Notes under the pieces: generated by a model
What the model was told of the DNA's origin: nothing
Databases searched by the model: none
The model's input: only the letters and a program-made list of their open reading frames with translations
Shown here: piece by piece, positions 39,956 to 63,899 of the stretch
How positions within the stretch are numbered: position 1 is the first letter of the stretch
Layout of the letters: every line of letters begins with the position of its first letter
Made by a program: the position numbers and the translations under genes
Origin: Devosia faecipullorum
Lineage (GTDB): Bacteria > Pseudomonadota > Alphaproteobacteria > Rhizobiales > Devosiaceae
Length of the DNA stretch: 64,000 nucleotides
NCBI RefSeq assembly: GCF_015158295.1
Contig: NZ_JACDXV010000001.1
Span: 620,001 to 684,000 of the forward strand
Reading direction: 5' to 3'

Positions 39956-40022
39956 TGCTCGCCCCACCAAATCCGGCAATTCCGGCCGATTCCGGCCTCT
40001 CATCCAGCTAAGGGGCACTTGG

Positions 40023-40037
40023 TTAACGAATAGTTAC
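40023..40037. promoter_or_regulatory. CtrA-box-like site before fliL
   Basis: TTAA-CGAATAG-TTAC matches the CtrA consensus TTAA-N7-TTAA with one mismatch in the second half. It lies 68 bases upstream of the fliL start, next to the tandem ftr-like elements. Weaker than the two perfect boxes at 48546 and 53783. Confidence 0.4.
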
Positions 40038-40052
40038 GATTAGCCCTGGCCC

Positions 40053-40079
40053 GGCAGTTTTTGCCGGGCAGCTTTTGCC
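40053..40079. promoter_or_regulatory. Tandem ftr-like elements upstream of flgF
   Basis: Two 13-bp elements, GGCAGTTTTTGCC (40053-40065) and GGCAGCTTTTGCC (40067-40079), are set 14 bases apart. The same pattern GGCA-N5-TGCC appears upstream of flgE and in the fliX/flgI gap. They lie about 103-129 bases before the flgF start point predicted from the sigma-54 element. This is the usual position of FlbD-bound ftr sites in Caulobacter, which they resemble from memory. Confidence 0.55.
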
Positions 40080-40155
40080 GGCGACGCAGACATTAATTGC
40101 CGATGACTGCATCTGACACACCGTTAAGTATCTGATTTTACTAAAATACCGCTCT

Positions 40156-40171
40156 TGGCATGGTTTCTGCA
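40156..40171 (+). promoter_or_regulatory. Sigma-54 type promoter of flgF
   Basis: TGGCATGGTTTCTGCA gives GG at 40157-40158 and GC at 40169-40170 with exactly ten bases between, close to the -24/-12 consensus TGGCAC-N5-TTGCA. The implied start near 40182 leaves a 55-base leader before the flgF ATG. Confidence 0.72.
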
Positions 40172-40236
40172 AAGTTAATGGGCGAGGCGGTCAGCTTGGG
40201 GAAGCGGCTGTCTCGGGGAAAGACACGGGGAATGTC

Positions 40237-40977
40237 ATGATCGAGAACGCGCAACTTATCAGCCTGTCCCGGCAGATCGCTTTGCAGCGCCGGATGGACG
40301 TGGTGGCGCACAATGTCGCCAACATCAACACGACCGGCTTCAAAGCCGAACAGATCCTGTTCGAAGAATACACCATGCCGGTGGCGCGCGACCGGACTTT
40401 CCCCAATCTCGACCAGCCGCTCTCCTATGTGCAGGACTGGGCGACGATCCACGACATGGCCGGCGGCACCATGATCCAGACCGGCAATGACCTCGATGTG
40501 GCCCTTAATGGCGACGGCTTTTTCGCCGTCCAGACCCCTGCCGGCGAACGCTGGACCCGGGCCGGATCGTTCCAGATCAGCAGCAACGGCACGCTGGTCG
40601 ATCTTTCGGGCAATCCCGTTCTCGGCCTCGCCGGCCCGATCCAGTTCGGCCCCGAAGAAGTCGGCATCGCCATCGCCACCGATGGCATGATCTCCTCCAG
40701 CGCCGGCGCCCGGGGGCAGTTGCGCATCGTCGAGTTCGATAACCCGCAGGCCCTGGCCCGCGAGGGCAGCAATCTGTTTTCCGGCGGCACGCCCGGCCCC
40801 AACACCAATACCCGGGCCATCCAGGGCCACGTGGAGCGCTCCAACGTTTCCGGTGTGTCGGAAATGGCTGAACTCATCCGCGTCACCCGCGCCTACGAAT
40901 CCATCGCTTCGCTGACGCAGAAGCAGGACGAGCTGCGCCGCTCGGCCATTCAGCGTCTCGGCGACGCCAACGCTTGA
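40237..40977 (+). CDS. flgF: Flagellar basal-body rod protein FlgF
   Basis: 246 residues. The rod-family N-terminal motif is QRRMDVVAHNVANINTTGFK. The central segment FAVQTPAGERWTRAGSFQIS and the C-terminal VSEMAELIRVTRAYESIASL amphipathic helix are present. FlgF is part of the proximal rod. It is first in flgF-flgG-flgA-flgH, driven by the sigma-54 element at 40156. Confidence 0.95.
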   Translation: MIENAQLISLSRQIALQRRMDVVAHNVANINTTGFKAEQILFEEYTMPVARDRTFPNLDQPLSYVQDWATIHDMAGGTMIQTGNDLDVALNGDGFFAVQTPAGERWTRAGSFQISSNGTLVDLSGNPVLGLAGPIQFGPEEVGIAIATDGMISSSAGARGQLRIVEFDNPQALAREGSNLFSGGTPGPNTNTRAIQGHVERSNVSGVSEMAELIRVTRAYESIASLTQKQDELRRSAIQRLGDANA

Positions 40978-45411: not shown

Positions 45412-45846
45412 ATGATCCGCAAGCTCATCATCACCGCCCTGACCGTCAGCGTCATCGCCGCTTCTGCTACCCCTTCCATGGCCAATGACATCTACATCGA
45501 CCAGTTCGGCTTCGGCAACGCCGTCGGCGGTGGCCAGGCGGGCTGGAACAACAAGTTCGGCGCCAAGCAGACCGGGTGGTGGAATACGGCCATCAGCCAG
45601 CAGAATGGCGGCAATAACACTTCCGCCATCGGCCAGCAGGGCAATAACAATTACGGCGATGTCTGGCAGAATGGCTGGAACAATGCCGGTGGCGTCGGCC
45701 AGTTCGGCGACAACCACAACGCCATCCTGACCCAGGACGGCAACGGCAATATCGCTGCCGGTGTGCAGGTGGGAAATGGCTGCAACGCCAATGTCGTCCA
45801 GCATGGTTCGGGCAATGTCAGCGCCTTCGTCCAGGCCTGCCCCTGA
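45412..45846 (+). CDS. Curlin-like amyloid subunit (copy 1)
   Basis: 144 residues with a signal peptide ending SMA-N near residue 25. The mature part is a series of about five curlin-type repeats rich in G, N and Q (QQNGGNNTSAIGQQGNNNYG, then DVWQNGWNNAGGVGQFGDNH, then LTQDGNGNIAAGVQVGNG). The regular N-x5-Q spacing expected for stacked beta strands is visible. It is likely a secreted fibre subunit. It is followed 60 bases later by csgH. AAGGAGA precedes the ATG. No csgG, csgE or csgF lies in this window. Confidence 0.88.
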   Translation: MIRKLIITALTVSVIAASATPSMANDIYIDQFGFGNAVGGGQAGWNNKFGAKQTGWWNTAISQQNGGNNTSAIGQQGNNNYGDVWQNGWNNAGGVGQFGDNHNAILTQDGNGNIAAGVQVGNGCNANVVQHGSGNVSAFVQACP

Positions 45847-46479: not shown

Positions 46480-46893
46480 ATGACCATCCGCTTCACCAAG
46501 ACTTTCGCCGCCGCCCTCACCGCCGCCATGCTTGGCCTTTCCGCCGCCCCCGCCATGGCGGGCGGTCAGATCGCGATCGGCTTTTCGCCCAGCGATCCGG
46601 ATCAGGCACAGGCACTCGGCATGGGGCTGCAAATGTTCTCGCTGTTCCAGGGCATGTCCGCCACCGGCGCCAATGCCTACCAGAACGGCAATGGCAACGG
46701 GGCCGGTTTCAACCAGAACGGCTCGGGCAATCACGGCGTCATCTTCCAGGAAGGCAATGGCCATAACGGCACGATCAGCCAGAACGGCAACAACAATTCC
46801 TGCGGCCTCTTCCAGTTCGGCCAGGCCACCAATGCGCAATGCGTCCAGAACGGCAATGGCCAGTCCGGCATCACCACGGTGTTCGGCTTCTAG
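46480..46893 (+). CDS. Curlin-like amyloid subunit (copy 2)
   Basis: 137 residues. The signal peptide ends PAMA-G near residue 28. A non-repeat N-terminal part (to about 65) is followed by curlin-like repeats: AYQNGNGNGAGFNQNGSGNH, then FQEGNGHNGTISQNGNNNS, then QNGNGQSGITTVFGF. It has fewer repeats than copy 1 and a different head, so it may act as a nucleator (CsgB-like) or a minor subunit; this is inference. It has its own 198-base upstream region and a terminator. Confidence 0.82.
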   Translation: MTIRFTKTFAAALTAAMLGLSAAPAMAGGQIAIGFSPSDPDQAQALGMGLQMFSLFQGMSATGANAYQNGNGNGAGFNQNGSGNHGVIFQEGNGHNGTISQNGNNNSCGLFQFGQATNAQCVQNGNGQSGITTVFGF

Positions 46894-48073: not shown

Positions 48074-48493
48074 TCAGAAGCGGGGATAGCGCCCGAGCTT
48101 GGCCAGTTCCACCAGCACGCGCAATTCGATGTCGTCGATAATAGCGTCGAGACCCGGATCGACCCGCTCGCGCATATCGTTGAGCTGGGTCACCAGCGTG
48201 TCGAGCTGATCGCCCCCCATTCGCCCCACCAACAAATCCGCCTTCAACCCTTCCAGGAGGTCGAGCAGGTCGGAGCCGCGCCGGACCGCCCTGCGGCGGC
48301 CCTCTCGGAAATCGCCCACGGCCTGAAGGGCAAGAATGGCATCGAGCCCGGTCGTCGATGCAACGGGCGTCGTGCTGGCAATACGCGATGCGCCGTGTTC
48401 CCCCGCCGGCACAAAGGCGGGCGCGCTGCCCGCCCGGCCCGCAGCGGACCGGCCGGAAACGCCATTGGAACGATTGGTGGCATCAATACGCAA
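48074..48493 (-). CDS. fliX: Flagellar assembly trans-acting factor FliX
   Basis: 139 residues. The N-terminal part is variable and disordered. The conserved C-terminal part (about 50-139) reads GLDAILALQAVGDFREGRRR, RRGSDLLDLLEGLKADLLVG and IIDDIELRVLVELAKLGRYP, which fits the alphaproteobacterial FliX family. In Caulobacter FliX couples basal-body assembly to activity of the sigma-54 activator FlbD. It is divergent from flgI, as in Caulobacter. The shared 245-base gap holds a perfect CtrA box, an ftr-like element and a sigma-54 promoter for flgI, plus a weak GG-N10-GC match for fliX at 48591-48578. Confidence 0.88.
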   Translation of the reverse strand: MRIDATNRSNGVSGRSAAGRAGSAPAFVPAGEHGASRIASTTPVASTTGLDAILALQAVGDFREGRRRAVRRGSDLLDLLEGLKADLLVGRMGGDQLDTLVTQLNDMRERVDPGLDAIIDDIELRVLVELAKLGRYPRF

Positions 48494-48524
48494 AGCGCGG
48501 GACTCACTCGCCGAAAGCTACCCC

Positions 48525-48537
48525 GGCAAAATCTGCC
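48525..48537. promoter_or_regulatory. ftr-like element in the fliX/flgI gap
   Basis: GGCAAAATCTGCC (in the wider context CCCCGGCAAAATCTGCC) is the reverse orientation of GGCAGATTTTGCC found before flgE. It lies 32 bases before the fliX start and about 156-168 bases before the predicted flgI start point. This is the expected signature of an FlbD site acting on both genes. Confidence 0.55.
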
Positions 48538-48545
48538 CACGGGAG

Positions 48546-48561
48546 TTAACAAAGCGTTAAC
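48546..48561. promoter_or_regulatory. CtrA box between fliX and flgI
   Basis: TTAA-CAAAGCG-TTAAC is a full match to the CtrA consensus TTAA-N7-TTAA(C). It lies 53 bases upstream of fliX and is well placed over a fliX promoter. Confidence 0.68.
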
Positions 48562-48666
48562 GCGCTCGGCAGGAATTGCTCACCAATCACCAGCCGGCTC
48601 CACACAACCCGACCCAGACAAGAAAAAGCCTTTCAATTTCAAAAGCATAAATCTGAAAAATCGAAC

Positions 48667-48682
48667 TGGCACAGTTCTGGCA
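48667..48682 (+). promoter_or_regulatory. Sigma-54 type promoter of flgI
   Basis: TGGCACAGTTCTGGCA has a perfect TGGCAC -24 block and GC at -12 (48680-48681) with exactly ten bases between GG and GC. The predicted start is near 48693. Confidence 0.75.
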
Positions 48683-48738
48683 TTAATCGATGCGAAGGTC
48701 GCGCCATGGAGATGGCACGGCTTCAGCCGGGGAAGAAA

Positions 48739-49863
48739 ATGCCAAATCGCCTGTTCCGCACCATTATCGCCGCCACGCTGAGCGCTGTCCTGATCCTGCA
48801 ACCGTTGACGACCGCACAGGCCGCGCCCGCCCGCATCAAGGACATCGTCGACATGGAGGGCATCCGCGAGAACCAACTCGTGGGATACGGCCTCGTGGTC
48901 GGCCTCAACGGCACCGGCGACAGCCTCAACAATTCGCCCTTCACGCGGCAATCGCTGCAATCCATGCTGGAGCGCCTCGGGGTGAATACGCAGGGCGAGA
49001 ACGTCCGCACCAAGAATGTCGCGGCGGTTATGGTCACGGCCAACCTCCCGCCCTTCGCCACTCAGGGCTCGCGCATGGATGTGTCCGTGTCGGCCCTTGG
49101 CGATGCCGGCAGCCTTCAGGGCGGCACCCTGCTGGTCACACCCCTGCTCGGCGCTGACGGTGAGGTCTATGCCATCGCTCAGGGCCCGGTGCTGATCAAC
49201 GGCTTCAAGGCCCAGGGCGATGCCGCCACGGTGATTTCCGGCGTCCCCACCACCGGCCGCATTTCTTTGGGCGCGCTGATCGAGCGCGAGATCGACTTTC
49301 ACCTCGGCTCCAAGCATTCGCTGCGGCTGGCCCTGCGCAATCCCGACCTCACCACCGCGCGGCGCATCGCGCTGGCCGTCAATGACTTCATCGGCGCGCC
49401 TACCGCCGTGCCAGAAGATCCAGCGACGGTGCGGCTGACCCTGCCGCGCGGCTTTAACGGCAATATTGTCGATCTGCTGACCGACATCGAACAATTGATC
49501 GTGCAGACCGACCAGCCCGCCAAGATTGTCATTGACGAAAATTCCGGCATCATCGTCATGGGCAAGGATGTGCGCGTCTCCGCCGTGGCCGTGGCCCAGT
49601 CCAACCTCACCGTGACCATCGCCGAGAACCCGCAAGTGGTGCAGCCCAACCCGCTGAGCTTCGGCCAGACGGCGGTGGAGCCCAATACCGACCTCAACGT
49701 CAACCAATCCGATACCGCACTCCAGATGGTGCCTGAATCGGTGACGCTGCAGCAATTGGTGGATGGCCTCAATGCGCTGGGCATCTCTCCCCGCGACCTG
49801 ATCGCCATCTTGCAGGCGATCAAGGTCACCGGCGCCCTGCAAGCCGAAATCGAGGTGCTGTGA
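48739..49863 (+). CDS. flgI: Flagellar P-ring protein FlgI
   Basis: 374 residues from this start. Signal peptide MPNRLFRTIIAATLSAVLIL and onward, cut near AQA-APAR. Diagnostic blocks are RIKDIVDMEGIRENQLVGYG, LVVGLNGTGDSLNNSPFTRQ and the C-terminal LQQLVDGLNALGISPRDLIA. It forms the periplasmic ring around the rod. ATGs at 48706 and 48712 are also in frame; 48739 gives the cleanest signal peptide, while 48706 has GAAGG upstream. The stop overlaps the next gene's ATG (TGATG). Confidence 0.95.
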   Translation: MPNRLFRTIIAATLSAVLILQPLTTAQAAPARIKDIVDMEGIRENQLVGYGLVVGLNGTGDSLNNSPFTRQSLQSMLERLGVNTQGENVRTKNVAAVMVTANLPPFATQGSRMDVSVSALGDAGSLQGGTLLVTPLLGADGEVYAIAQGPVLINGFKAQGDAATVISGVPTTGRISLGALIEREIDFHLGSKHSLRLALRNPDLTTARRIALAVNDFIGAPTAVPEDPATVRLTLPRGFNGNIVDLLTDIEQLIVQTDQPAKIVIDENSGIIVMGKDVRVSAVAVAQSNLTVTIAENPQVVQPNPLSFGQTAVEPNTDLNVNQSDTALQMVPESVTLQQLVDGLNALGISPRDLIAILQAIKVTGALQAEIEVL

Positions 49864-51304: not shown

Positions 51305-53629
51305 ATGAGTGATGTCTCGCTCTCGAAAGCCGTTCGCTCGAACCTGCTTTCCCTCCAGAACACCGCGACCATGATGGCCAAGACGCAGGAGCGTCTCGCC
51401 ACCGGTAACAAGGTGAATTCTGCCCTCGACAACCCCACCAACTTCTTCACCGCGTCGGCCCTCAACAGCCGCGCCGGCGACCTGAATTCGTTGCTCGACA
51501 ACATGGCCAACGGCGTCAAGACGCTCGAAGCCGCCGACAACGGCCTCTCCGCCATCACCAAGACGCTGGAATCGATGAACTCGACCCTGCGCCAGGCCCG
51601 TCAGGACAAGTCCTTCCAGGTCGCTTCCTTCGACGTGACTGCAGACTCCGTGCTCAACATCGGTGGCGGCACCCTTGATGCAGAAGGCATCTCGGTTTCG
51701 CTGGCTGCTGCTGACCCCGGCGTGAAGGCTTCGGTCTCTACCGGCAGCAACTTTACCGGCCCGGTACCTGCTGCTGCAAACGAACTCGGCGCCGGCGCTG
51801 GCGCACGCACCACCGTGACGCTAGACGCCGCCAACGCCCTCGCTGGTGCTGCGATCAGCGTTGATGATCACGAACTCACCCTGGATGGAGCCTCGAATAC
51901 CGCCGCTCTCGCTGCCGCCGATATTCAGACTAAGCTGAATGCGCTTGCGGGCGACGGTGCCTACACTGTTGGTTTCACCGCCGACAATGAAATCATCATC
52001 GAAAATAGCGCGACCACCGGCGCGACTTCCACTGCTCCGGTCGTTGACCTTGGAGCCACTGCCGCCGTTACCGGCTCGCAGACCTTCACCTACGATGCAT
52101 CCCGCTTCCAGGGCAGCTTCAGCGTTGGTGGCACTGCATACGCAGTCGATGGCGCCAATGTGAACGACTTCGTGGCCTCCCTGCAGGAGCAGGTTGGTGC
52201 CGCCTATGTCGTTAGCAATGAAGGCAACGACGTCACCATCACCAATGCTACTGTTGGTGGGGTTGCACCTACACTGTCTCTGCCAAGCGCAACGCAGGCA
52301 ACGACCACTTTCAACATCGGCGCTGTCACCGACGATACCCGTGATGGTCAGACCTTCATGGTGGCGGGCCAGGAAGTCACCGTAGCCTGGTCCACTGACG
52401 CGACTGGCACCAATGGAGCCATGGAAGCCGCTATCAGCCAGGCACTGGATGATGCTGGCCTGGATCCCACTGACTACACCGTTGCTGTAGACAGCACCAC
52501 CGGCGCGGTCTCGATCACCGCAGATACCGCCGGCGCCTCTAACGCAGTTACAGCCGGCAATGGCACCGTTACCCTGACCAACAACAACGCGGTCAACGGT
52601 CTCGCTGCGATCGCGCCGACCACGACCGTGGGCGCTGCTGGCACGACCCAGGAAGCAACGGCCGCCGCCAAGCAGACGTTCAACGTCACCTATGGCAACA
52701 AGACCACCGAAATCACTATCGGTGCGGGTGAACCTGCTGACATTGCGTCCAGCATCAACTCCCAGCTTCAGGCCGCAGGCATCAAGGCAGAAGCAACCAT
52801 CGGTGACGACGGCGCACTGAGTATCTCGGCAACCTCTGCCGAGGCCAAGACGCTGGCAATTTCTGGTGGCAACAGCGCAGCGATCTTCGGTGACAACGAC
52901 ACCGTTGCCGTCGGTACAGCTGCAACGGCTCCGATCAATGCCACGAAGGCTGTCGACAAGTTCGTTGAACTGATCAACCGCGATCATGGCGTTTCGATCC
53001 GCGCCTCCAACGACAACGGACGCCTCCGCATCGAGAACCTCTCGACTACCGAGATGAACGTTTCAGCAGACAAGGTGGGCGACGGCACCTTCACGGACAC
53101 CAAGATCGGCGGCAACTCCGTCCGCGAAGGTCTGGCTGGCCAGTTCAACGAACTCAAGGATCAGCTCAACAAGCTGGCCGACGACGCTTCGTTCAACGGC
53201 ATCAACCTGCTCCGTGGCGACCAGCTGACGATCACCTTCAACGAAACCGGCAACTCCTTCATGCAGATCAAGGCCGGCGACCAGCGTGGTATCAACTCGC
53301 AGTCGCTGAACCTGAACGATCTGGTCGGTTCCGATTTCGACAGCGACGCCAACATCGACAAGCTGCTGGGCGACATCAAGCTGGCCCTCAACAGCGTCCG
53401 GTCGCAGGCTTCGGCCTTCGGCTCGAACCTGTCGATCGTGCAGAACCGTCAGGACTTCACCAAGAACATGATCAACACGCTTGAGACTGGCGCTGCCAAC
53501 CTCACGCTTGCTGACATGAATGAGGAAGCCGCCAACCTGCTGGCTCTCCAGACCCGCCAGTCCCTGTCGTCCTCGGCGCTGTCGATGGCTTCGCAGGCGG
53601 ACCAGAGCGTACTGCAGCTGCTGCGTTAA
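51305..53629 (+). CDS. Giant flagellin (copy 1, 774 residues)
   Basis: The N-terminal D0/D1 region (1-115) has NSALDNPTNFFTASALNSRA and the C-terminal D1/D0 region (about 560-774) has FGSNLSIVQNRQDFTKNMIN and LTLADMNEEAANLLALQTRQ, both standard alphaproteobacterial flagellin. Between them lies about 440 residues of acidic, Ala/Thr/Gly-rich sequence with about four repeated beta-alpha-beta modules, for example GSFSVGGTAYAVDGANVNDF and later YGNKTTEITIGAGEPADIAS. The core would be exported by the flagellar apparatus and the insert should face outward on the filament. It has its own terminator. A TTAA-N8-TTAA near-CtrA box lies at 51203-51218. Confidence 0.95.
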   Translation: MSDVSLSKAVRSNLLSLQNTATMMAKTQERLATGNKVNSALDNPTNFFTASALNSRAGDLNSLLDNMANGVKTLEAADNGLSAITKTLESMNSTLRQARQDKSFQVASFDVTADSVLNIGGGTLDAEGISVSLAAADPGVKASVSTGSNFTGPVPAAANELGAGAGARTTVTLDAANALAGAAISVDDHELTLDGASNTAALAAADIQTKLNALAGDGAYTVGFTADNEIIIENSATTGATSTAPVVDLGATAAVTGSQTFTYDASRFQGSFSVGGTAYAVDGANVNDFVASLQEQVGAAYVVSNEGNDVTITNATVGGVAPTLSLPSATQATTTFNIGAVTDDTRDGQTFMVAGQEVTVAWSTDATGTNGAMEAAISQALDDAGLDPTDYTVAVDSTTGAVSITADTAGASNAVTAGNGTVTLTNNNAVNGLAAIAPTTTVGAAGTTQEATAAAKQTFNVTYGNKTTEITIGAGEPADIASSINSQLQAAGIKAEATIGDDGALSISATSAEAKTLAISGGNSAAIFGDNDTVAVGTAATAPINATKAVDKFVELINRDHGVSIRASNDNGRLRIENLSTTEMNVSADKVGDGTFTDTKIGGNSVREGLAGQFNELKDQLNKLADDASFNGINLLRGDQLTITFNETGNSFMQIKAGDQRGINSQSLNLNDLVGSDFDSDANIDKLLGDIKLALNSVRSQASAFGSNLSIVQNRQDFTKNMINTLETGAANLTLADMNEEAANLLALQTRQSLSSSALSMASQADQSVLQLLR

Positions 53630-53681: not shown

Positions 53682-53782
53682 CATTTCCGGGACCGCCCTC
53701 CCCTCAATTTTGGTGCCCAGCAGAAGAAAATTCAGCATTAACACCCAGGTAACAGACCTTTCCGGGCCGTTAGCGAGCACGG

Positions 53783-53798
53783 TTAATGGCTCGTTAAC
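53783..53798 (+). promoter_or_regulatory. CtrA box before flagellin copy 2
   Basis: TTAA-TGGCTCG-TTAAC is a full match to TTAA-N7-TTAA(C). It lies 70 bases before the flagellin start. Confidence 0.62.
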
Positions 53799-53867: not shown

Positions 53868-56126
53868 ATGTCCGACATTACGCTTTCAAAGGCCGTTCGC
53901 GCCAACCTGCTGTCGCTTCAGAATACCGCTGACCTGATGTCCAAGACCCAGGAAAGGCTGGCGACGGGCAAGAAGGTTAACAGCGCCCTGGACAACCCGA
54001 CCAATTTCTTCACTGCATCGGCCTTGAATTCACGCGCTGGCGACCTAAACGCGCTGATGGACAACATGGCCAATGGCATGAAGACCATCGAAGCGGCGGA
54101 CAATGGCCTGACAGCCATCACCAAGAATCTTGAATCGATGCAGTCCACATTGCGGCAGGCCCGCCAGGACAAATCCTTCCAGGTCACCACTTTCGACGTT
54201 ACGGCCGATTCCATCATCAACATTGCCGGCGGCACCCTGCCCGATCCTGTGACCGTTGAACTGGCCGCCCCCTATGAGGGTGTCCGCGCCACGCTTACCA
54301 GCCAGGCTGCCTATGCCGGCCCCGACACGACCGGCACGACGCTGGGCGGCGCTCAAGCCGTTGTTGCCTACAACGCTACAATGGACAACAGCACCTCGAT
54401 CACGGTCAACGGCGTCGGCATCAATCTGGCGGGCACAACCGGCATCAATGATGTTGCCAACAAGATCGGCGCTGATCTCGGACCCAATTATTCTGTCTCG
54501 GTCGATGGCACGGACATCGTTATCGAAAACGTCGACAGCACCCTCGCGCCGCCACAGGTTGATCTTGGCGGCGCTGCTGCAACGCCCTCGGTCGCGACAT
54601 TCGCCTACGATCCCGCTCGCATGGGCGGCTCTATCGACATTGGCGGCACGACCTACACGGTCCCCGGCGGCCCGATCGAAGACTTCGTCGCTTCCCTTGG
54701 AACTCAGCTCGGCTCCGCCTATCAGGTTACCAGCCAGGGCAATGAAGTCACCATTCTGGCGACCAATCCCGGTGCAACCCCGATCAATGTGTCGGGACTG
54801 CCGGCAGCCACTTCTGCAACCACCACTTTTGACATCGACGACGTCGATGCCCTGATTACCGCTGGCTCGATCAATGTCGGCGGCGTCAATGTCAACCTTT
54901 CGGCACTGACTGCAGGAACCGATGATGAGGATGACGTCGCAGCGGCCATGCAGACACAGATCCAGACCGCGCTTGGTGCTGGCTGGACGGTCAATAATGC
55001 GGCCGGAACGATCACCATTTCTCATACCGCGGGCGCACAGACAGCACTGGATGTCGCCCCGGCAAGCGGCGTCGATGCGGCCAGCGTTTCTCGGACCAAT
55101 GGCGTCGCCGCCATCACCGTCAATGGCGCCACCGGCAATGCCGGTGCCGTCGTCAGCACCAACAACGCGCCAGCGGATACATTCCGCCTGACCTACGGCA
55201 CAGGCCATGTCGACCTCAAGATCACCGCAGGCGATGAGGCACAGATGTCCGCCCGGCTGAACAATCAGCTTGAGATCGCCGGGATCAAGGTGAAGGCCAG
55301 CTTCGTTGGCGGTGCGTTGACCTTTACCTCGGATGAGCCGGAAGCCAAGACTCTGGCTCTGTCGCAGGGCAGCTCAACCGCCATTTTCGGTCAGGAAACC
55401 GTGGCAATCGGCGAGGATGATGTGCCTCCGCTCAATGCCACCAAGGCCGTCGACAAGTTTGTGGAGCTGATCAACAGCTCCTATGCGACCTCCGTCCGCG
55501 CCTCCAACGACAATGGCCGCCTGCGCATAGAAAACCTGTCGACCAGCGAAATGAATGTCGTGTCGGACAAAACCGGCAATGGCGCGACGACCACGCATAA
55601 GATTGGCGGCAACGCGGTCCGTTCCAGCCTGGCCAATGAGTTCAACGATCTCAAGAACCAGCTCGATCGCCTCTCCGATGACGCCTCGTTCAACGGTATC
55701 AACCTGCTGCGCGGCGATAATCTACGCATCACGTTCAACGAGAGCGGTAATTCATTCATCGAGATCCAGACCACGACGGGCGATGGGCTCAATGCCGCAA
55801 CGCTGAAACTGCGGGATCTTGACGCCAAGGATCTCGACGCGGATTCCAGCATCGATGCCCTGTTGGCCGAGGTAAAGCTCGCCCTGAACGGGGTACGCAC
55901 GCAGGCATCCAAGTTCGGCTCGAACCTGTCCATCGTGCAGAACCGCCAGGACTTCACCAAGCGGATGATCAATACGCTGGAAACCGGCGCCGCCAACCTG
56001 ACGCTGGCGGACATGAACGAGGAAGCGGCGAACCTGCTGGCGCTCCAGACCCGCCAGTCGCTCAGCTCCTCATCATTGTCCCTGGCCAGCCAGGCCGACC
56101 AGAGCGTGCTGCAACTGCTCCAATAG
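53868..56126 (+). CDS. Giant flagellin (copy 2, 752 residues)
   Basis: The ends (1-115 and about 540-752) are near-identical in plan to copy 1, with the same NSALDNPTNFFTASALNSRA and LTLADMNEEAANLLALQTRQ blocks. The middle differs strongly but keeps the same module logic: GGSIDIGGTTYTVPGGPIED, GSINVGGVNVNLSALTAGTD and VDLKITAGDEAQMSARLNNQ. The two genes are ancient tandem paralogues with diverged outer domains. AAGGAAAAGG precedes the ATG. Upstream is a perfect CtrA box, and downstream a terminator followed by flbT-flaF. Confidence 0.95.
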   Translation: MSDITLSKAVRANLLSLQNTADLMSKTQERLATGKKVNSALDNPTNFFTASALNSRAGDLNALMDNMANGMKTIEAADNGLTAITKNLESMQSTLRQARQDKSFQVTTFDVTADSIINIAGGTLPDPVTVELAAPYEGVRATLTSQAAYAGPDTTGTTLGGAQAVVAYNATMDNSTSITVNGVGINLAGTTGINDVANKIGADLGPNYSVSVDGTDIVIENVDSTLAPPQVDLGGAAATPSVATFAYDPARMGGSIDIGGTTYTVPGGPIEDFVASLGTQLGSAYQVTSQGNEVTILATNPGATPINVSGLPAATSATTTFDIDDVDALITAGSINVGGVNVNLSALTAGTDDEDDVAAAMQTQIQTALGAGWTVNNAAGTITISHTAGAQTALDVAPASGVDAASVSRTNGVAAITVNGATGNAGAVVSTNNAPADTFRLTYGTGHVDLKITAGDEAQMSARLNNQLEIAGIKVKASFVGGALTFTSDEPEAKTLALSQGSSTAIFGQETVAIGEDDVPPLNATKAVDKFVELINSSYATSVRASNDNGRLRIENLSTSEMNVVSDKTGNGATTTHKIGGNAVRSSLANEFNDLKNQLDRLSDDASFNGINLLRGDNLRITFNESGNSFIEIQTTTGDGLNAATLKLRDLDAKDLDADSSIDALLAEVKLALNGVRTQASKFGSNLSIVQNRQDFTKRMINTLETGAANLTLADMNEEAANLLALQTRQSLSSSSLSLASQADQSVLQLLQ

Positions 56127-56239: not shown

Positions 56240-56665
56240 ATGGCGCTCAAAGTCGAACTTAAGCCGGGGGAAAAGCTCCTGGTTGGCAATTGCATCATCA
56301 CCAATTCGGACCAGCGTACCCGGCTGTTCATCGATGGTCGCGCTCCCATCCTGCGGGAAAAGGACATCCTGACCGCAGAGACTGCCACCAGCCCCGCCAA
56401 GCGCATCTATTTGGCTGTGCAGCTCATGTATATTGAGGACGACATCACCACGATGCGCGACGAGTATTTCGCGCTGGTCGATGATTTTGTCACTGCCGCC
56501 CCCTCGACCACCGAGACAGTTAACCAAATAAACAACGAGATATTAACCGGGCAACTATACAAGGCTCTGAAGGCTGCCCAAAAGCTTATCGAGTACGAAC
56601 AGGAACTGCTTTCTAATGTACCAACAAGGCGCGCAGGTTTACCAACAGACGGCGAAGATCGTTGA
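56240..56665 (+). CDS. flbT: Flagellin synthesis post-transcriptional regulator FlbT
   Basis: 141 residues. MALKVELKPGEKLLVGNCII, the RLFIDGRAPILREKDILTAE segment and RIYLAVQLMYIEDDITTMRD are family hallmarks. In Caulobacter FlbT binds the flagellin mRNA leader and destabilises it until the hook is complete. Strong GGAGG before the ATG. The gene's last 50 bases overlap the start of flaF in another frame. Confidence 0.95.
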   Translation: MALKVELKPGEKLLVGNCIITNSDQRTRLFIDGRAPILREKDILTAETATSPAKRIYLAVQLMYIEDDITTMRDEYFALVDDFVTAAPSTTETVNQINNEILTGQLYKALKAAQKLIEYEQELLSNVPTRRAGLPTDGEDR

Positions 56666-60983: not shown

Positions 60984-63731
60984 CTAGCGGACCATGTTCA
61001 GGGCTTCCTGCAACATCTCGTCGGCCGTTGAGACGATGCGGGTGGCAGCCGAATAGGCCTGCTGGGTGATGATCAGTTTGGTGAACTCGTCCGAAATATC
61101 GGTATTGGAGGCTTCGAGCGCGCCCCCGATAATACCCGAGCCGGAGAGGTCGAAGATCGGCTCGCCCGATTCCGAGGTGGACTGATAGACGCCGCCATCG
61201 AGGCGCTTCAGCGAATTGACGCCATTGAATTGGGCGGTCACCACCTGCGCCATCTCGATGCGCTCGCCATTGGAATAGGTGGCCACGACCCGCCCGGCAT
61301 CGGTAATCGCCACCGACAGGAATTCACCGGCGCCATATCCGTTCTGGTTCAGCGTCGAAACGGTCACCGTGCCATTCACGTCCGCAAACTGGGAAACGCC
61401 ATTGGTGTCGTGGCGGAGCTCGACATTGCCGATATAGACGCCGTTGACCGACAGGTTGTTGATCATCGTCTGGGGAACGCCGGCCCCGATCAGCGAACCA
61501 TTGCCACCGAATTCATAGCTCTGCCCGGTATTGGTCCAGGCAGGTGCGCCACCCACGGCCGTGCTGTCGGAGAGATAGAAAAGCTGCCACTTGTCGGTGC
61601 CGCCTGCAGCAGCGCTGTCCACCTTGGCCCAGCGCATCTGCACGTTCACCGGTGCGCCGTTGCTGGCATAGACGGTAATGGCGCCGCCGGAGATCGACTG
61701 CGACACGAACCTGTCGGAGTCCGCCGCCGAGACATAGTCGAGCTCGCCGGTTTCGGCCTGGAACGAACCGGCCACGCCCAGCGTATTGGCTGCCGTACCG
61801 CTGATTTCGACGTCATAGTGATAATTGTCGTCGAAGGAGATCCGCACCTGGCCAGCTTCGTAGGTCACCCTTGCATTGGCAGCGCCGGGCCCACCATTGG
61901 TCTGCAGATCGGCCTGAATGTCGGCGAGGACATCGGCCAGCGATTGGCCGGCATTGATCTCGACCAGACCGGCGCCCGTCGAATAGGAGCCGTCGGTGTC
62001 GAAGCGATAGGAACGCGTGATATTGCCCACGGTGACGACCAGGCTGTCGCCATTGCTCAGCATCAGGTCGGCCGGCAGGTTTTCCGGTGTGATGGCGCCA
62101 TTGGCAATCGAGTTGTGCGGGCCTGCCCCCAGACCCAGCAGATCGCCCGTCAACACGCCGTTGCGCGTCGTGATGAAGGAAACTGGCTGGGTATTGGTCG
62201 TGCCGGCAGAAATCTCCACCGCACCATTGCGCAGCATGGCCGTGACGGTGCTGTCGCCGGTCAGGGTGCGCAGCTCGTTCTGGATGGCCGACATCATGGA
62301 ATTAATGTTGCCCAGCGCCGAAATGGCGGTTTCGCCTGCACTAGCCATTGTGTCTGCTGCACGCGCACCGGGCGGGTAGGTGATGCTGAGTTCGCCCGTG
62401 CCGGCATTGTAATTGGCGATCGAGCCGGGGAAAGCAGTCTGGATTGCGCTCACCAGGCCGGCGCCATCGGGGTTAAGCGGCGCAGCAAAGGGAATTGTTG
62501 TCTGCGTCGGATTGCCGATCTGGAATCCCCCAGCCGCGTGAATTGCGGCGAGGTCATTGGAACCGATCTGCAAAACCGTCGTTGCCGAACCCGTGACGAA
62601 TCCCGGAAAGGCCGCATCGAAAGACACGCCTCCCGCGCCGGCAGCCGAGGCGGCGGGCGTCCAGGCAGTCGTGGAATAGGTGATGTCGAGATTGCCGGTG
62701 ACCGGATTATAGACCGCCGAAGTACCGGCGGGCAAAGTATCCTCGACGGCCTGAATCAGGCCCGCCGCATCCGCCGAATAGCTGCCGTAGAACGGAATAG
62801 GCATACCACCCACATTGAGATCGCCTACGCCATGCAGCGCCGCGAGATTGGCACTGGGGATATTGATGCGCATCGTGCTCGTAGCCGATCCGGCGGTCGC
62901 GCCGCCAATGCCTACCGCCGGATTGGCGACGCCATTGGTATCGAACCGCAGGTTATAGGTCGCGCCGCCAATGGTGACGGTCAGCATGTCGGCATCGTTG
63001 ACCACGCTATTGGCCAGCGCCGTGCCCACCAGATTGGCGCCGGTAGCGCGCGCCGGAACAGTCATCGTATTATTGGGCGGAATTGCCTTGCCCGTCGTCG
63101 TATGCGGATAATAGGGCGCGCCAGCCACCGAACCATAAGACCACGGCCTCAGCAATTCGCTGTTCGGAGTGGTCGCATTATAGCTTGCCGTCTTGGGCAA
63201 TTGCGGCAAGTTGGCCTGGTAATTGATCGTCCGGGTGACGTTTGCAGGCAGGAAGGCGTTGGACAGCTTGATGACCTCAGGCACCGAGCCGGAAATATTG
63301 CCCGTGCCAGCATCGATCGGCAGGCCCTTGAGATAATAGCCGGCGCCATTGACCAACAGACCATCCTTGTCGATCTCGAAATCGCCACGGCGGGTGAAGA
63401 AGTTCGAGCCGGCAAAAACCGAATTACCGTCCGACTGACCGACCTTAGGCTCGACCACAAAGAAGCCGCCCGAATTGAGCGCGATATAGGTCTCGTTGGC
63501 ACTGGTCTGGATGTCGCCCTGGAGATTGTTGGTGGCGCGGGACTGCGCCAGAACGGCTCCCGGAACCTGCGACTTGAGCGGGGCGTCGGGAATGAGGTCG
63601 ACAAAGCTCGTTTCCATGCGCTTGTAGCCCACGGTCTGCGAGTTGGCGATATTGCCCGAAATATTCTCCAATGCATGCGCCTGCGCCCGCAGGCCGGTCA
63701 CCGCACTGGAAAGAGCCCCATAGATACCCAT
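60984..63731 (-). CDS. flgE: Flagellar hook protein FlgE (915 residues, enlarged)
   Basis: N-terminal MGIYGALSSAVTGLRAQAHA and ISGNIANSQTVGYKRMETSF, and C-terminal LEASNTDISDEFTKLIITQQ and AYSAATRIVSTADEMLQEAL, identify FlgE. Typical alphaproteobacterial hooks are roughly 400-600 residues, so 915 is exceptional. The middle contains a tandem repeat of about 60 residues near 293-350 and 393-453: LAALHGVGDLNVGG ... GNLDITY, and LAAIHAAGGFQIGN ... GELSITY. It heads the flgE-flgK-flgL operon, with a sigma-54 promoter at 63799-63784 and an ftr-like site further up. Confidence 0.94.
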   Translation of the reverse strand: MGIYGALSSAVTGLRAQAHALENISGNIANSQTVGYKRMETSFVDLIPDAPLKSQVPGAVLAQSRATNNLQGDIQTSANETYIALNSGGFFVVEPKVGQSDGNSVFAGSNFFTRRGDFEIDKDGLLVNGAGYYLKGLPIDAGTGNISGSVPEVIKLSNAFLPANVTRTINYQANLPQLPKTASYNATTPNSELLRPWSYGSVAGAPYYPHTTTGKAIPPNNTMTVPARATGANLVGTALANSVVNDADMLTVTIGGATYNLRFDTNGVANPAVGIGGATAGSATSTMRINIPSANLAALHGVGDLNVGGMPIPFYGSYSADAAGLIQAVEDTLPAGTSAVYNPVTGNLDITYSTTAWTPAASAAGAGGVSFDAAFPGFVTGSATTVLQIGSNDLAAIHAAGGFQIGNPTQTTIPFAAPLNPDGAGLVSAIQTAFPGSIANYNAGTGELSITYPPGARAADTMASAGETAISALGNINSMMSAIQNELRTLTGDSTVTAMLRNGAVEISAGTTNTQPVSFITTRNGVLTGDLLGLGAGPHNSIANGAITPENLPADLMLSNGDSLVVTVGNITRSYRFDTDGSYSTGAGLVEINAGQSLADVLADIQADLQTNGGPGAANARVTYEAGQVRISFDDNYHYDVEISGTAANTLGVAGSFQAETGELDYVSAADSDRFVSQSISGGAITVYASNGAPVNVQMRWAKVDSAAAGGTDKWQLFYLSDSTAVGGAPAWTNTGQSYEFGGNGSLIGAGVPQTMINNLSVNGVYIGNVELRHDTNGVSQFADVNGTVTVSTLNQNGYGAGEFLSVAITDAGRVVATYSNGERIEMAQVVTAQFNGVNSLKRLDGGVYQSTSESGEPIFDLSGSGIIGGALEASNTDISDEFTKLIITQQAYSAATRIVSTADEMLQEALNMVR

Positions 63732-63886: not shown

Positions 63887-63899
63887 GGCAGATTTTGCC
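63887..63899. promoter_or_regulatory. ftr-like element upstream of flgE
   Basis: GGCAGATTTTGCC, set in the longer near-palindrome GGCGGGCA ... TGCCGCC, lies about 114-126 bases upstream of the predicted flgE start point. It is the same element as in the flgF and fliX/flgI regions. No gene is supported in the rest of 63732-64000. Confidence 0.58.

Follow-up and report, generated by a model that had tools for sequence, protein, structure and literature searches.

The 64,000-nucleotide stretch of Devosia faecipullorum DNA analyzed here (hereafter, the window) contains the flagellar genes fliX and flgI, which are transcribed away from one another across a short gap. This arrangement raises the question of whether, and by which elements, one gap could pass control from CtrA to FlbD and sigma-54. 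The CtrA-to-FlbD hand-over is usually described gene by gene. The original prediction for this locus, made from the letters alone, placed a CtrA box, an ftr-like site, and a sigma-54 element for flgI in the gap beside a divergent fliX, and read them as a compact hand-over point. The features that we found are collected in Table 1.

Table 1. Genes and control elements in and around the fliX-flgI gap (window coordinates)
Feature	Position	Strand	Remarks
fliX	48074-48493	-	TTG start; Pfam FliX, E 4.4e-35; divergent gene, predicted to be CtrA-driven
GAGTC (fliX sense), GANTC methylation-type site	48501-48505	-	7 bp before the fliX start
ftr1, FlbD-type site over the predicted fliX -10	48524-48537	.	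exact CGGCAAAATCTGCC; core palindrome GGCA-N5-TGCC at 48525-48537
CtrA box, TTAA-N7-TTAAC	48546-48561	.	exact; TTAACAAAGCGTTAAC
ftr2, second FlbD-type site	48567-48580	.	CGGCAGGAATTGCT; core palindrome with one mismatch
IHF-like site in the enhancer-promoter interval	48637-48649	.	two mismatches to WATCARNNNNTTR, which we take to be the IHF consensus
Sigma-54 promoter element of flgI, TGGCAC-N5-TGGCA	48667-48682	+	in 110/110 family gaps by the lenient pattern
flgI leader hairpin	48698-48721	+	loop GGAG (48708-48711) in the window, GGGG in most relatives
flgI ribosome-binding sequence GGGGA, a repeat of the loop motif	48729-48733	+	in 92/110 family gaps
flgI, P-ring protein	48739-49863	+	Pfam FlgI, E 1.5e-138

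Both flanking genes were confirmed by Pfam, and the three predicted elements lie exactly where they had been placed: the CtrA box and the sigma-54 element match their patterns, and the ftr-like site is a GGCA-N5-TGCC palindrome. The original prediction had passed over the second ftr site, the GAGTC site, the IHF-like site, and the flgI leader hairpin. The CtrA box carries GTTAAC in each half and is thus readable on both strands, and the sigma-54 element shows the GG-N10-GC arrangement of a -24/-12 promoter. Since the FliX of the window scores under the NCBIfam equivalog cut-offs, we regard it as a divergent FliX. The genome encodes FlbD (NF050807, 826 bits vs a cut-off of 750) and RpoN (PF04552, 221 bits), as well as GcrA, recognized by Pfam with a score under the NCBIfam cut-off, and a RAMA-domain protein that is a candidate of the CcrM type (the RAMA domain part was scanned). 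For flgI, the ATG at 48739, which is preceded by GGGGA, is the best reading of the start codon; another ATG in the same frame, farther upstream at 48706, falls within the hairpin of the leader.

Taken alone, the window sets only the CtrA box clearly above chance. The exact CtrA pattern occurs at two places in the 64 kb (four strand matches) and in none of 100 shuffles. The bare ftr core occurs seven times vs a shuffled mean of 2.7, a modest excess given that seven was reached in 1 of 100 shuffles, and the relaxed sigma-54 pattern occurs twice vs a shuffled mean of 2.0, which is no excess. The case for the gap therefore depends on conservation. We take GGCA-N5-TGCC to be the ftr (FlbD) motif, an assumption supported by its co-occurrence with sigma-54 elements across the class.

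We compared the gap within the GTDB family of the window, in which fliX was found in 117 of 121 genomes (own genome included); 110 of the 117 gaps form the family sample, seven being left out. The two genes are divergent in all 110. An exact CtrA box (TTAA-N7-TTAA) is present in 104 gaps and an exact ftr site in 105, against means of 0.7 and 0.3 in 20 shuffles, and the sigma-54 element is present in 109 by the strict pattern (mean of 0.1 in 20 shuffles) and in every gap by the lenient one. Counting ftr sites as GGCA-N5-TGCC with at most one mismatch beside an exact CtrA box, we found ftr1 in 103 of the 110 gaps, ftr2 in 85, and both in 84. Each of the two occurs in six more gaps that lack an exact box, so that an ftr-like pair is seen in 90/110 family gaps and a fliX-side site in 109/110. 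In the genus of the window, the CtrA box, ftr1, and the sigma-54 element are present in 59/59 gaps and ftr2 in 58/59.

Column conservation gives the same picture at finer scale. Among 58 aligned gaps of the genus, columns conserved at 90% or more make up 12/14 of ftr1, 11/13 of ftr2, 12/16 of the sigma-54 element, and 8/16 of the CtrA box, in which seven positions are free; the hairpin has 4/24 and the GGGGA block 3/6, and outside the named elements there are 6/151. The exact IHF consensus, on either strand, was found in 23 of the 110 family gaps vs a shuffled mean of 1.3, and the TCA and TA columns of the IHF-like site are 81-98% conserved in the same 58 gaps. Altogether, the shuffle comparison in the 110 family gaps and the column conservation rule out chance as the source of the gap motifs. 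Loss of the elements in close relatives that keep the genes, the outcome that would speak against the original prediction, is not the pattern that we observed; relatives with conserved genes show conservation of all three elements as well.

The spacing of the elements is nearly fixed. From start to start, ftr1 precedes the CtrA box by 21 bp in 96/103 family gaps and the box precedes ftr2 by 22 bp in 75/85, which leaves ftr1 and ftr2 43 bp apart in 69/84 with the CtrA box midway. Since these spacings correspond to about two, two, and four helical turns, the three sites would lie on the same face of the DNA. The center of ftr2 stands a median of 93 bp from the sigma-54 element (quartiles 92-94), an enhancer-type distance, and the center of the CtrA box a median of 114 bp.

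The exceptions to this arrangement are informative. Six of the 110 family gaps lack an exact CtrA box. One, in group g2, has a box with one mismatch and ftr sites on both sides. The other five form group g6 (L094, L101, L109, L113, and L119); there, no CtrA box is found at this place, the sigma-54 element is kept, and two ftr-like sites (at most one mismatch each) stand exactly 41 bp apart in 5/5. Because g6 keeps the pair without the box, the ftr pair is independent of the CtrA box. The ftr spacing may therefore serve FlbD alone rather than competition with CtrA, and g6 speaks for cooperation between both ftr sites and against a spacing that exists solely for the exclusion of CtrA. In other gaps, ftr2 falls under the threshold (12/17 in group g12, 6/13 in g16, and 1/59 in the genus), and the single gap of group g5 has ftr2 only, with ftr1 under the threshold.

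In the class, PF10768 was found in 155 of 289 genomes (own genome included). Of 170 loci from outside the family sample (30 automatic, 80 named, and 60 regions), a divergent fliX-flgI gap was readable in 152, the other 18 having no recognizable flgI or fliX in the piece. We used 149 gaps, leaving out L261, which has a g16-like arrangement, and two gaps longer than 700 bp; the outside-family counts that follow include near-duplicates, such as several Azospirillum. The sigma-54 element is present in 130/149 gaps, an exact ftr site in 96/149, and an exact CtrA box in 31/149. Given the first two counts, we conclude that an enhancer plus a promoter is the class-wide plan.

A CtrA box with at most one mismatch stands before the sigma-54 element in 80/149 outside gaps. 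Of these 80, 55 have ftr sites solely toward flgI and 3 have them to both sides of the box; another 22 have none flanking the box, and no gap (0) has a site toward fliX alone. The corresponding numbers among the 104 family gaps are 1, 84, 0, and 19. The usual class order is thus fliX-CtrA-ftr-sigma-54-flgI, as in Woodsholea maritima (Maricaulales), which shows the CtrA box, one ftr site, and the sigma-54 element; no ftr site lies between the CtrA box and fliX in 77/80. The general alphaproteobacterial gap resembles that of the window in its divergent genes, in the fliX-side location of any CtrA box that it has, and in ftr and sigma-54 sites toward flgI. It differs in that the ftr distances vary more and the fliX-side ftr site is missing in those 77 gaps. 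Since class ftr sites normally lie only on the flgI side of CtrA, ftr1 looks like a gain in the family of the window. By sequence comparison, then, ftr1, the very site named in the original prediction, is a departure from the class plan.

The position of ftr1 bears on what it might do. Activating full CtrA motifs in Caulobacter have their 5' base near -35, or at -39 for ctrA P2, according to PMC4287350. If this position is applied to the window, the fliX transcript would start near 48521, and its -10 would fall at about 48528-48533, inside ftr1. The TTAA-N7-TTAA motif at fliX is exact in 104/110 family gaps, and its placement at -35 relies on this predicted start; no separate conserved block for the fliX -10 is visible in the gap. 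Because ftr1 covers the predicted -10 and the ftr sites flank the CtrA box, FlbD should repress fliX.

Such a dual role has a precedent. According to PMC3930126, ftr sites allow FlbD to activate middle genes and, in the case of ftr4, to repress fliF; FlbD is itself first inhibited and later stimulated by FliX. Direct binding of FliX to FlbD is described in PMC3096577. From the directly computed features (the elements, their conservation and near-fixed spacing, the covarying hairpin described below, and the presence of the regulator genes), we infer the binding events, the fliX start site, the repression, the timing, and any role of the hairpin that would together make up a compact two-way switch from CtrA to FlbD, with negative feedback of FlbD on fliX. 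We favor this reading with modest confidence. Specifically, CtrA at its box would drive leftward transcription of fliX, and FliX would help to activate FlbD after early flagellar parts are placed. FlbD would then occupy ftr1 and ftr2, about two helical turns to either side of the CtrA box, and, aided by a bend at the IHF-like site, would act as the enhancer for the flgI sigma-54 promoter some 90-140 bp away. The same FlbD complex would turn fliX down and in this way feed back negatively on the gene that encodes its partner. A hairpin showing UGGGGA (UGGAGA in the window) would stand at the 5' end of the flgI mRNA, with GGGGA again at the ribosome site. The conservation of the three elements and the FlbD and RpoN genes of the genome support the original prediction in part; the hand-over itself, including who would bind and when, is a proposal drawn from the DNA letters.

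The regulators would be those of the Caulobacter hierarchy, with CtrA at class II, FlbD/FliX and sigma-54 at class III, and ftr4 at fliF, and both systems would use ftr-type sites to activate middle genes and to repress an early gene (PMC3930126 and PMC3096577). The cassette in the window differs from the Caulobacter arrangement in that it unites activation and predicted repression, has an ftr pair around the CtrA box, and has fliX as the predicted repressed gene.

Much of this evidence could also be read without repression of fliX. Both ftr sites could form a double enhancer for flgI only, with the fixed spacing arising from the assembly of an FlbD oligomer and the CtrA box merely occupying the space between them. 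A distance of 43 bp from ftr1 to ftr2 in 69/84 gaps is what cooperative enhancer sites would be expected to show, the g6 gaps keep their pair at 41 bp in 5/5 without a CtrA box, and ftr sites are kept class-wide in gaps with a flgI sigma-54 element (96/149 exact). However, only 3 of the 80 outside gaps with a CtrA box have an ftr site on the fliX side, so an enhancer alone needs no ftr1. Moreover, where a family gap with an exact CtrA box has a single ftr site, this is ftr1 in 19 cases and ftr2 in 1, and a role confined to flgI gives no reason for retaining ftr1, the site farther from the flgI promoter. We regard a pure double enhancer as the less probable reading, though one to be taken seriously. 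A different suggestion is that CtrA acts on flgI as well, or represses it, the box being a shared regulator of both genes. The symmetry of the box, with GTTAAC twice, would suit such a role, and a single CtrA site in Rhodobacter activates two divergent flagellar promoters (PMC6180460). Yet the sigma-54 element before flgI is conserved throughout the family sample (110/110), and the center of the CtrA box, at a median of 114 bp from that element, is too far off for a CtrA-type contact at -35; a direct effect of CtrA on flgI is thus very improbable. The two-way switch with feedback on fliX remains our preferred reading.

A further conserved site lies between this cassette and fliX. GANTC occurs 0-12 nt before the fliX start codon in 73/110 family gaps, as GAGTC in 72 of the 73, and it is found in 51/59 gaps of the genus, 17/17 of g12, and 1/13 of g16. 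In 12 of the 13 g16 gaps (e.g., L079, L086, L098, and L115), TTAACC stands at most 35 nt from the fliX start; it resembles a CtrA half-site and is found where GAGTC is mostly missing. According to PMC7987155, fliX is a GcrA target in C. crescentus and not in Brevundimonas subvibrioides. At GcrA/CcrM promoters, GANTC is expected between -35 and -10; here, GAGTC is conserved and predicted to lie past the transcription start. Because of this downstream position, a role of GcrA at the site is doubtful. The central G in 72/73 is more constraint than a plain GANTC needs. Since the site is predicted downstream of the start and its central base is fixed, GAGTC is possibly in part a ribosome site, and it may have a weak role of this kind in addition.

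The last element of the gap lies in the flgI leader, where family members share a hairpin with a U-GGGG-A loop about 5 nt past the start of the flgI transcript, which is predicted near 48693 in the window. Requiring only GGGG and pairing, a stem of at least four pairs was found in 86/110 leaders (shuffled mean 1.6, maximum 6), and nine other four-base loops gave such stems in 0 to 9 of the 110. With a stem of at least three pairs, the count is 91 leaders, closed by U-A in 90 and by U-G in 1. The same signal appears when no pairing is imposed. A first GGGGA lies 8-45 nt past the sigma-54 element in 91/110 gaps, and at least four of its five flanking positions pair in 88 of these 91, vs an average of 49 and at most 61 after the arms are swapped between loci; outside the genus of the window, this holds for 42/44 vs 17 and at most 25 with swapped arms. 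For the ribosome-site copy of GGGGA, at least four of five flanking positions pair in 3/89. In 38 distinct sequences, for which the inner three pairs and the U-A closing pair were required, the covariation score is 0.83 vs 0.17 shuffled, and the two outer pairs, which were not required, pair in 32/38 and 35/38 with 19 and 14 two-sided changes.

The repetition of the loop motif is likewise a family trait. GGGGA is present near the flgI start in 92/110 family gaps vs 4/152 others. Both copies occur in 82 of the 110, the hairpin copy only in 9, the ribosome-site copy only in 10, and neither in 9, an association with a Fisher p of 0.0004 that is uncorrected for relatedness. Since the loop motif recurs in this way, flgI may also be controlled at the level of translation. 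A leader model, R1, was built from 24 leaders, the window sequence among them, and scores the window leader at 40.6 bits, a value to which training on this sequence contributed. Among the 90 family loci scanned (of 110), R1 matches 82, with 83 matches, 20 of which are training sequences; 79 pass an automatic check of the flgI-leader position, three do not, owing to a sigma-54-like sequence that by chance lies immediately before them, and the remaining one is an additional match to the other strand. There were no matches at E 0.05 among the 100 class loci scanned (of 170). In 10 whole genomes, where 150 of about 1,500-2,800 candidates were scored per genome and misses are possible, the best match is the flgI leader in seven and flgH and flgF in one each; in the tenth genome, it is a weak match that is probably spurious.

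We compared this leader with known systems. It resembles flg-Rhizobiales RNA (RF01736) as a leader hairpin with a G-rich loop before a flagellar gene, and differs in that the RF01736 covariance model found no flgI match in the window or in the 16 family loci scanned (of 110); Rfam likewise did not recognize the flgI leader in these sequences, and we rejected the identification. CsrA-type leaders have a GGA in a hairpin loop and a GGA at the ribosome site. The flgI leaders share a similar geometry, with the loop and ribosome-site copies a median of 22 nt apart (88 leaders), and differ in their UGGGGA loop, which departs from the usual CsrA consensus. Dependence on CsrA was rejected, since PF02599 has no match in the own genome, which is 99.97% complete. 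FlbT is encoded in the window (56240-56665); in PMC4347634, FlbT is proposed to bind a flagellin mRNA leader in Caulobacter and Brucella. The presence of the gene is shared with that system; the reported target, flagellin mRNA, is different. FlbT is thus no more than a candidate binder of the flgI leader; a search for FlbT in the Protein Data Bank gave no match.

Another account of the hairpin would dispense with a dedicated RNA-binding regulator, taking it for a DNA palindrome bound by protein or a mere stability clamp at the 5' end. Hairpins at 5' ends can protect mRNA, and the hairpin indeed begins about 5 nt past the predicted start. Against both versions, the loop is nearly invariant and the stem changes by compensation (0.83 vs 0.17 shuffled), whereas DNA palindromes keep their half-sites, and a clamp gives no reason for a fixed loop sequence or for a GGGGA common to the ribosome site. 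We consider this account rather unlikely.

Similar leaders and gaps were seen at other flagellar genes. The theme returns in the fliL/flgF gap (40022-40240): a box at 40022-40037 is one mismatch away from the CtrA pattern, a tandem pair of GGCA-N5-TGCC sites occupies 40053-40079, and a sigma-54-like element, TGGCATGGTTTCTGCA, lies at 40156-40171. The flgF leader of the window, with a GGGG loop, matches RF01736 at 30.7 bits, under the gathering score of 55. U-GGGG-A leaders with GGGGA ribosome sites were found at flgF in five other genomes (L353, L354, L356, L357, and L374) and at flgH of G056 (L355 and L373 being the same place); these flgF and flgH leaders were selected by a pattern or model that contains the motif, and the genes were named by likeness to the window proteins. 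A search for two GGGGA copies in eight genomes gave 13 places for examination. Leaders of flgF or flgH account for five of them, and no flagellar gene was seen by eye at the remaining eight, so the pattern alone is unspecific. Elsewhere in the window, flgE, which starts at 63731 on the minus strand, has an ftr-like palindrome (63887-63899) about 155 bp before it, and the only other exact CtrA box (53782-53798) lies upstream of the second of two flagellin genes. Both flagellins are unusually long: that at 51305-53629 (774 aa) has Pfam Flagellin_N and Flagellin_C at its ends, and that at 53868-56126 (752 aa) was named by likeness. Two small proteins that look secreted and have many Q/N/G repeats (45412-45846 and 46480-46893) presumably resemble curlin.

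In the literature available, largely without subscription journals, we found no account of a CtrA box bracketed by ftr sites at fliX-flgI, nor of a hairpin in the leader of flgI. A near-rigid ftr-CtrA-ftr cassette at the gene of the FlbD partner makes direct competition testable within one 60-bp stretch, and gaps with a weak ftr2, as well as gaps with an ftr pair but no CtrA box, offer natural controls. Given its strong covariation, the leader hairpin is a candidate structured RNA; it suggests that rod and ring genes have an additional control at translation, and this possible layer sits in a bacterium in whose own genome no CsrA was found. More speculatively, and with little confidence, the gap could in this family be a three-layer checkpoint in which CtrA starts fliX, the bracketing pair of FlbD sites shifts the gap from fliX to flgI through direct competition, and an RNA-binding protein, with FlbT as a candidate, holds back the flgI mRNA until it releases the UGGGGA loop and the GGGGA ribosome site. 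If this were true, the same type of leader on flgF and flgH would couple the synthesis of the rod and ring to their assembly.
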